DNA from: Rhodospirillales bacterium 20-60-12
GTDB taxonomy: Bacteria; Pseudomonadota; Alphaproteobacteria; Acetobacterales; Acetobacteraceae
DNA length: 46,431 bases
Reading direction: 5' to 3'
Assembly: GCA_002255495.1 (NCBI GenBank)
Contig: NCAP01000011.1
Location: 1-46,431 of the forward strand
In this document: one piece after another, positions 14,255 to 15,672 of the stretch
Position numbering within the stretch: the first letter of the stretch is position 1
How the letters are laid out: each line of letters starts with the position of its first letter
Made by a program: the position numbers and the translations under genes
Notes under the pieces: generated by a model
What the model was told of the DNA's origin: nothing
The model's input: the letters and a program-made list of their open reading frames with translations, nothing else
Databases searched by the model: none

Positions 14255-14977
14255 ATGAATTCGATCGACAGCACCATCAGCCTGGCCACGACGCTGCAAA
14301 CCAAGGGCTTCGCCTTCCTGCATGGCAGCGAGACGAGCGCCTTGTTCGCCGAAGATATCATGCCTGACGATTGGGCGGCCTTTGCTGCCAGTTGGGATGA
14401 TTTAAAGACCGATGAATATATGGCCGATGGTGGCCGCTACCGGCGGCGGCGCTTTGCGGTGTATGTAACGGAGCCGGGCGGGCCGATCAGTCGGGCAGCG
14501 CACCAGCCGCATTATCAGGCACGCAGTTATAATCAGCTCAATGGCGGTATTGAACGCTGGTTCGAGCCGATCACCGAGACGACGAGCATGAATCCTGCTT
14601 TCACCGCCCTGCTCTCGACCAGCCGGGCATTGTTCGATCGGCTCGCCGCAACTCCTGCGTGGCATATCGAAGCACATCAATTCCGGATCGAGGCGGGACC
14701 CGGTGGCGCCGGCCAGCCGACACCGGAGGGCATGCACCGTGATGGCGTGGATTTTGTTCTGGTCAGCCTGATCCGCCGGCAGAATATCGAGCAGGGTACC
14801 ACGACAATACATGATCTGAACGGTCAGGCCTTGGGTAGTTTTACATTGACCAACAAGCTTGACTCGGCGCTGGTTGATGATCGCCTTGTGTTCCACGGCG
14901 TCACTGCCGTGACCCCAACTGACCCCGCTTTGCCGGCGTTTCGCGATGTCTTGGTGCTGACTTTCCGGAAGATCTGA
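14255..14977 (+). CDS. 2OG-Fe(II) dioxygenase family protein (PF10014 type)
   Basis: 240 aa. The Fe(II) site is readable: H161 and D163 in MHRDGVDF, distal H214 in VFHGVTAV, and the 2-oxoglutarate-contacting arginine R238 in VLTFRKI. The segment NIEQGTTTIHDLNGQALGSF between them matches the jelly-roll core of the 2OG-Fe_Oxy_2 family, which includes free L-isoleucine and other amino-acid hydroxylases. Known members hydroxylate free amino acids; the substrate here cannot be inferred because no biosynthetic partner is adjacent. The neighbours are an MscS channel and a repeat-filled convergent gap. The start ATG 14255 has no strong ribosome site. Confidence 0.75.
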   Translation: MNSIDSTISLATTLQTKGFAFLHGSETSALFAEDIMPDDWAAFAASWDDLKTDEYMADGGRYRRRRFAVYVTEPGGPISRAAHQPHYQARSYNQLNGGIERWFEPITETTSMNPAFTALLSTSRALFDRLAATPAWHIEAHQFRIEAGPGGAGQPTPEGMHRDGVDFVLVSLIRRQNIEQGTTTIHDLNGQALGSFTLTNKLDSALVDDRLVFHGVTAVTPTDPALPAFRDVLVLTFRKI

Positions 14978-14998
14978 TCGGGGTTGCTCCGGCGCCGC

Positions 14999-15094
14999 TA
15001 GAGTGTTTTTCATCTCATGAAAAACACTCTAACTTCATTTTAGCGAGCAAATTCATTCATCTGAATTGAACCTTGCGGTTCAATTCAGATGAAT
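14999..15094. repeat. Two-hairpin module, copy 1
   Basis: Perfect 15-bp inverted repeat at 14999-15013 / 15017-15031 (arm TAGAGTGTTTTTCAT, loop CTC). A 23-nt spacer (15032-15054) follows, then a perfect 18-bp hairpin 15055-15072 / 15077-15094 with loop TTGC. It lies 21 bp after the dioxygenase stop codon, in a convergent gap. The same architecture is repeated at once as copy 2. Confidence 0.9.
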
Positions 15095-15099
15095 TTTGC

Positions 15100-15197
15100 T
15101 CTAGATCGTGATCGTTTTACAACGACATGCTCTATGGTCATTTTGTCGATCAATTTCATTGATTAAGCTGGAGTCAAGCGACTCCAGCTTAATCAAT
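15100..15197. repeat. Two-hairpin module, copy 2
   Basis: An imperfect palindrome at about 15100-15134 (TCTAGATCGTGATCG to CGACATGCTCTA) is followed by a 23-nt spacer (15135-15157) matching 16 of 23 bases of the spacer in copy 1. A perfect 18-bp hairpin 15158-15175 / 15180-15197 with loop AAGC completes it. The stem sequences differ completely from copy 1, yet stem length and loop length are the same. Confidence 0.88.
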
Positions 15198-15229
15198 ATT
15201 GATCTAATGCAGCGCCGGAGCGGATGGGC

Positions 15230-15508
15230 TTACATCGATTTATCGGTGGACGGCGCAGGCGGCTGCATTTTATCGAGCTGTTGCTGGTTAAGCTGATCGG
15301 CTTTGGTTTTGGCCTCATGCTTGGCCAATTCATGGCCTGCGATGCAGCCGCCAACCGCGCCGAGAACGGCATGGTGATGCAGCATGTGACCGGCAACGCC
15401 GCCGGCGACAGCGCCCGACAGACAGCCGACCGCGTGGGCCTTTGGCGCTGCGATGACCGAAATTGATAAAGCCGAGACGAGGCAGACCGCGGTGATTTTG
15501 GCGTTCAT
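15230..15508 (-). CDS. Glycine-zipper periplasmic protein
   Basis: 92 aa. The frame is open upstream to 15667, but ATG 15508 starts a clean signal peptide (MNAKITAVCLVSALSISVIAAPKAHA), so this start is chosen. The mature part has small-residue repeats GCLSGAVAGGVAG and GAVGGCIAG around HMLHHHAVL, the 17-kDa-antigen / glycine-zipper type pattern seen in envelope proteins. A charged tail (KHEAKTKADQLNQQQLDK) and a Pro-rich end follow. Role unknown; such proteins usually sit in the outer membrane or periplasm. Two cysteines, C30 and one in the second zipper, are not in a lipobox context. Confidence 0.72.
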   Translation of the reverse strand: MNAKITAVCLVSALSISVIAAPKAHAVGCLSGAVAGGVAGHMLHHHAVLGAVGGCIAGHELAKHEAKTKADQLNQQQLDKMQPPAPSTDKSM

Positions 15509-15672
15509 TGTAAAAATCCGTTGTTGGTGAAGCAAAGATGGACTCGTTACGCAAAAGGCGGTTTCGAACACCCCTGTGGCGGATTTAAGGCGGGTGGACG
15601 CGGCCGATACTGAAAGCCGTCCACGCCGCTGAAAAACTATGAACGATGGCTTTCTGGCTGCAAGCACCGGCT

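Follow-up and report, generated by a model that had tools for sequence, protein, structure and literature searches.

The RUP element of Streptococcus pneumoniae, a MITE proposed to be mobilised by IS630-Spn1, is about 107 bp long and occurs in about 108 copies, which are intergenic and have TA termini and IS630-like ends (PMC2229807). The Correia/NEMIS elements of Neisseria and the ERIC elements of enterobacteria are also short, TA-flanked MITEs that are present in many copies and fold into stem-loops (PMC2229807). The element family described here is a MITE and is closest in kind to the pneumococcal RUP, with which it compares, by description, in size, copy number, intergenic location, TA termini and IS630-like ends; it differs in host phylum and presumably in sequence, and the review mentions no two-palindrome build, bulged inner arm or ten-base length steps for RUP (PMC2229807). 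The likeness to Correia/NEMIS and ERIC is likewise one of description, whereas the lengths of the ends and the anatomy differ. The family shares with REP/BIME sequences the presence of extragenic palindromes in mosaic arrays, but is distinguished from them by the lack of a Y1 transposase, by a TA duplication and by a 101-bp unit of fixed anatomy. One study reports no CGTC-tagged repeats for the Acetobacteraceae (PMC3733652), the family of the host. A search of openly accessible papers found no published description of this family, and several of its traits appear to be new among known MITEs: a build of two palindromes whose inner end is broken, conservation of the spacer across genera, arm changes that mirror each other and length steps of about 10 bp.

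Anatomy of the tandem pair

The window, that is, the whole stretch of 46,431 nucleotides that was analysed (contig NCAP01000011.1 of Rhodospirillales bacterium 20-60-12), contains at 14999–15197 two modules, each of which, by direct reading and repeat search, consists of a palindrome (P), a 23-nt spacer and a hairpin (H). What the initial annotation said of them is confirmed: the spacers (15032–15054 in copy 1, 15135–15157 in copy 2) are identical at 16 of 23 positions, and the inner stems are formed by perfect 18-bp arms around a 4-nt loop (15055–15072 with 15077–15094 in copy 1, 15158–15175 with 15180–15197 in copy 2). The structure is far beyond chance, the folding energy of 14980–15220 being −122.1 kcal/mol against −54.8 ± 4.5 kcal/mol in shuffled sequences (z = −14.8), and the window contains two occurrences of the spacer motif against an expectation of 0.02. 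Both palindromes are 33 nt long, that of copy 2 being imperfect, with a bulged A and one mismatch. A 7-bp outer stem had been overlooked. In this stem the end of the spacer pairs with the bases that follow the hairpin (GAGCAAA with TTTGCTC in copy 1, GATCAAT with ATTGATC in copy 2), leaving TTC unpaired as a 3-nt bulge that is confined, in both copies, to the left arm. Once the outer stem is counted, the units run from TA to TA, at 14999–15103 and 15102–15206.

Copy 1, of subtype A, lies on the plus strand (14999–15103, terminal TA to terminal TA; mobile body 15001–15101, GAG...CTC) and matches positions 1–107 of the covariance model at 117.9 bits; its ends are defined by identical copies at different sites and by nested insertions. 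It begins with the P palindrome (14999–15031, no strand assigned; TAGAGTG...CACTCTA, 33 nt, 15 bp plus a 3-nt loop), whose outer arm is the left end, continues with the conserved spacer ACTTCATTTTAGC (15032–15044, plus strand), and closes with the H hairpin (15045–15101, plus strand), in which the 7-bp outer stem, the TTC bulge (15052–15054), the 18-bp inner stem and the loop (15073–15076) can be recognised and of which the right arm is the right end. Copy 2, of subtype B and also on the plus strand (15102–15206, again TA to TA; mobile body 15104–15204; 114.7 bits), has the same order of parts, with a P palindrome of 33 nt at 15102–15134 (no strand assigned), the conserved spacer TGGTCATTTTGTC at 15135–15147 (plus strand) and the H hairpin at 15148–15204 (plus strand; TTC bulge 15155–15157). 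The two copies have a TA in common (15102–15103, no strand assigned) in a CTAG junction of a type seen also, for example, on contigs C103 and C115. Upstream, a gene facing the elements (240-aa ORF, 14255–14977, plus strand) has a stop codon that ends 21 nt before the first TA; downstream, the stop of a convergent ORF (15230–15667, minus strand; 145 aa, the true start probably being further in) is 23 nt from the last TA.

A dispersed and mobile family

The hairpin modules are a dispersed repeat, with at least 150 copies in the window's genome. As a BLAST query the pair gives 71 matches in this 2.97 Mb draft, and a search for the spacer motif that tolerates as many as 3 mismatches gives 107 occurrences, against 0 for the reversed control. 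A covariance model, the kind of search that the initial annotation had suggested for further copies, matches 150 of the 150 candidates scored, so that 150 is a lower bound; copies plainly exist in relatives as well, with matches in 22 of 100 genomes (own genome included), of which 21 belong to the 60 from the same family, counted as 21 of 60 genera, and one to another family. Several subtypes coexist in the window's genome, each with its own arms. The spacer motif TTTTNNCGAGCANNTTYAT is present in 31 of 200 genomes of the family, representing 26 of 102 genera, with a handful of control hits, and between genera the arms are entirely different while the architecture is the same. Both outcomes by which the initial annotation would have been refuted, an absence of further copies and arms changed at random in homologous loci, are clearly contradicted. 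A strict subtype motif searched over 84,980 species genomes, a set from which the window's own genome may be absent, yielded 9 scattered matches in unrelated groups, roughly the number expected by chance, and plasmid records gave no match. One genome of the family's carriers, G220, has 79 motif copies, several of which lie at the ends of contigs; two congeners have 3 and 0, so that G220 may have seen a recent burst.

The ends of the element read TA/GAGC...GCTC/TA (the slash marks the boundary), and the targets are YTAR, with Y before and R after the TA; the terminal inverted repeats GAGC...GCTC are short, with looser similarity further inwards. In the carrier genome G042, five identical copies have unrelated flanks and always the form CTA/GAGC...GCTC/TAR. 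Two nested insertions in the window's genome (G000) point to the same boundaries. In the first, a single-palindrome element of about 57 bp interrupts a subtype B copy (C71:13100-13500, locus L232, minus strand), and removal of the element with one TA restores AAGTGATTCTAGCTAAACC, of the same length as the B sequence AAGTGACTCCAGCTAAACC. In the second, a full element sits in the loop of another B copy, also with a 2-bp TA duplication, one TA having mutated to AA. An orthologous empty site was found for a G220 copy: the gene there ends ...AEALDEVTAL at the element's TAG, whereas its homologue in the congener G171, ending ...AEALDAATVP, stops at the corresponding codon without an element behind it, and the opposite flank is contiguous. 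For the G042 copies, no match in 30 relatives spans the junction. The family thus has the characteristics by which bacterial MITEs are recognised: it is short (about 101 bp) and non-coding, has many dispersed copies and terminal inverted repeats, and duplicates TA. Of the two ideas in the initial annotation, that of a mobile hairpin unit whose arms are rebuilt is supported by the copy number, the 2-bp TA duplications, the empty orthologous site and the mirrored arm changes described below.

Several composite arrangements were also seen. The 57-bp nested element has one arm of each subtype C end type (GAGCAACATCCGATCA and GAGCGTTTTCCGATCA) and looks like a recombinant of P and H. At two loci (L005 and L056, on contigs C95 and C59 of the window's genome) two head-to-head elements have one P palindrome in common, so that P can form the left side of an A unit when read on one strand and of a B unit when read on the other. 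In chimaeric elements at C40:15544, C48:26680, C35:37798 and C23:18070 of the same genome the join falls within the left arm of H, which suggests recombination between subtypes. In G042 (L121, contig C47), an element is directly followed by a second spacer-plus-H unit that has no P of its own.

The candidate transposase and its target sites

We consider it very probable, on the sequence features assembled here, that each module is a non-autonomous MITE of about 101 bp moved by an IS630-family (Tc1/mariner-type) transposase. The enzyme would cut at TA/GAGC...GCTC/TA, insert the element into YTAR and duplicate the TA, using the outer arm of P as the left end and the outer arm of H as the right end. 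The inner arm of H resembles an end that has been disabled, with CG in place of TA and three bases inserted after GAGCAAN; an inner arm broken in this way would cause the P and H pair to move as one unit. IS630-family elements with CTAG targets are, we presume, those of the IS870 group. Such elements were found intact in related genomes, where they are about 1,050 bp long, with TA/GAGC ends and CTAG-type targets like those of the MITE, and are assigned to NF033545 (one transposase matches this model at 9.7e-68); unlike the MITE, they encode a transposase, which has 327 aa in one of them (L145), and lack P and H palindromes at the termini. IS630-family elements are present in 9 of the 10 carrier genomes tested, the window's genome having a weak remnant only.

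The arms of the MITE add a further connection. The P arm of a G042 element shares 17 of 20 positions with an IS630 end resident in that genome. Among 689 comparisons of MITE arms with IS630 ends, 8 show at least 12 identities in the 16 positions that follow GAGC; a binomial estimate gives an expectation of about 0.03. Only a few pairs are strongly similar, and a MITE arm often has its best partner in a different genome, so the link is good but indirect. Against it count the arms, which are far more variable than those served by a single transposase usually are, and the internal spacer, which is conserved although a MITE would not be expected to need it. The window's own genome yielded no intact IS630 whose ends match; the one remnant there ends differently, which suggests that the enzyme there has been lost, was missed or is supplied otherwise. 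An IS630 transposase is probably the enzyme nonetheless.

The distribution of copies relative to genes was obtained from simple ORF calls. Convergent genes flank 63 of the 150 copies, co-directional genes 58 and divergent genes 7; 5 copies lie inside ORFs, and the remainder have one neighbour that was not called. In 23 of 92 and 36 of 102 cases, 59 of 194 together, the stop codon of the facing gene is the one formed at the element's own terminal TA (56 TAG and 3 TAA). Several of the proteins concerned appear to be complete, among them what we read, from their sequences, as RecA, dUTPase (ending GGFGSTGT), aspartate-semialdehyde dehydrogenase (asd) and EtfA. Both ends of the element read TAG inwards, so that insertion into a stop codon would regenerate the stop and elements could collect harmlessly at the 3' ends of genes. 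A special targeting of stop codons was considered and rejected, as 38 such sites were observed against 30.0 ± 2.5 expected for random placement among YTAR sites between genes; the stop codon appears mostly to be one tolerated target, in which TA/G restores the stop, without strong preference. The TA/G end would in this way let the element use stop codons as harmless landing sites.

Each end of an inserted copy would also be a new CTAG-type target, so that another copy can insert where the first one ends, which would seed tandem copies such as the pair in the window. This pair and the arrangements on C103 and C115 look like insertions at a neighbour's boundary, and so do copies in G113 and G220 that are spaced by about 103 bases.

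Paired arms and length steps

The pairing of the arms is maintained. In 30 copies, 130 cells carry changes in both partners of a pair, where shuffles give 47 and slid structures 4–21, and nearest copies differ by 37 changes from one Watson-Crick pair to another, where about 5 are expected if the arms changed independently. Copy 2 in the window is an example of a mirrored change, with GATTAAGC and GCTTAATC in place of the usual GGTTTAGC. Covariation of this kind, together with its persistence across genera, could be taken for the mark of a structured RNA or a bidirectional terminator kept by base-pairing selection in the 3' regions of genes, a reading that also accommodates the preponderance of convergent over divergent locations (63 against 7), the T-rich tract after P and the terminator-like sites called at P and H on the plus strand. 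There is, however, no terminator-like site on the minus strand, no Rfam match at gathering score in the window and no orientation preference among co-directional gene pairs (25 against 33). One-sided stem changes show no G.U bias, with 60 G.T against 71 A.C in subtype B and 45 against 73 in nearest copies; without an excess of G.T over A.C, selection on the plus-strand RNA is not seen. Since mobility is also shown by identical copies at new sites and by TA duplications, an RNA or terminator has little chance of being the explanation, and the initial annotation's other idea, selection on structure, finds no backing at the RNA level in the G.T counts or in the orientations.

We think it similarly improbable that the element is moved by an enzyme of another kind that reads the hairpin structure, the spacer and the spacing, the likeness to IS630 ends being secondary. 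The wholesale replacement of arms, with pairing, spacer and length steps retained, would suit such an enzyme, but the TA target and GAGC ends match IS630 and the arms resemble IS630 ends beyond chance. Hardly credible is the mobilisation of REP/BIME-type palindromes by a Y1 (RAYT, TnpA_REP) transposase acting on single-stranded hairpins: the extragenic palindromes come in pairs with linkers, and the bulged stem resembles the structures that Y1 enzymes read, but this reading is contradicted by the absence of Y1_Tnp (PF01797) from the window's genome and from 10 of 14 carriers, including G042 with its identical copies (the other 4 have it), and the 2-bp TA duplication is not known as a signature of Y1 enzymes.

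For the IS630-type MITE, the most economical reading of the mirrored changes is that, in a hairpin that is extruded or single-stranded, one arm serves as template for the other, which would keep the arms paired. With this family, covariation of the sort that normally counts as proof of an RNA structure is clearly seen in a mobile DNA palindrome, and the MITE reading accounts for conspicuous intergenic hairpins across a bacterial family that could be misread as regulatory RNAs or terminators.

Lengths across genera fall into steps: P is mostly 31–34, 40–44 or 52–53 nt and H 45–48 or 56–59, a short P going with a long H, and whole units measure 93–95, 101–107 or 113–117, the counting differing slightly between analyses. 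The same steps appear among loci found by the spacer motif alone, a search that favours no particular length, and within single genomes nearly all well-parsed copies are 106–107 (G220), 103–104 (G226) or 115–117 (G217) long. A step of about one helical turn suggests that, in an element this short, the transposase complex requires both ends to point the same way and that lengths are fixed through such phasing; as the independent lineages are few, helical phasing is put forward as a hypothesis. More tentatively, and with the balance of our judgement somewhat against it, the hairpins may be a spacing and recognition device, its conserved features being a 3-base bulge on one side, the spacer TTTGTTTTNNCGAGCANNTTYAT and a total length that changes by single helical turns (P and H trading about 10 bp, the ends in phase), while the arms are freely rewritten by hairpin-templated copying. 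If so, a new MITE architecture has spread through a bacterial family. The natural series of about 95, 105 and 116 bp offers a direct way to test helical phasing in very short transposons. A 140-bp relative from another family of the class (L101, in G086) has two bulged hairpins with GATTCACGT motifs in both, and several copies of similar length.
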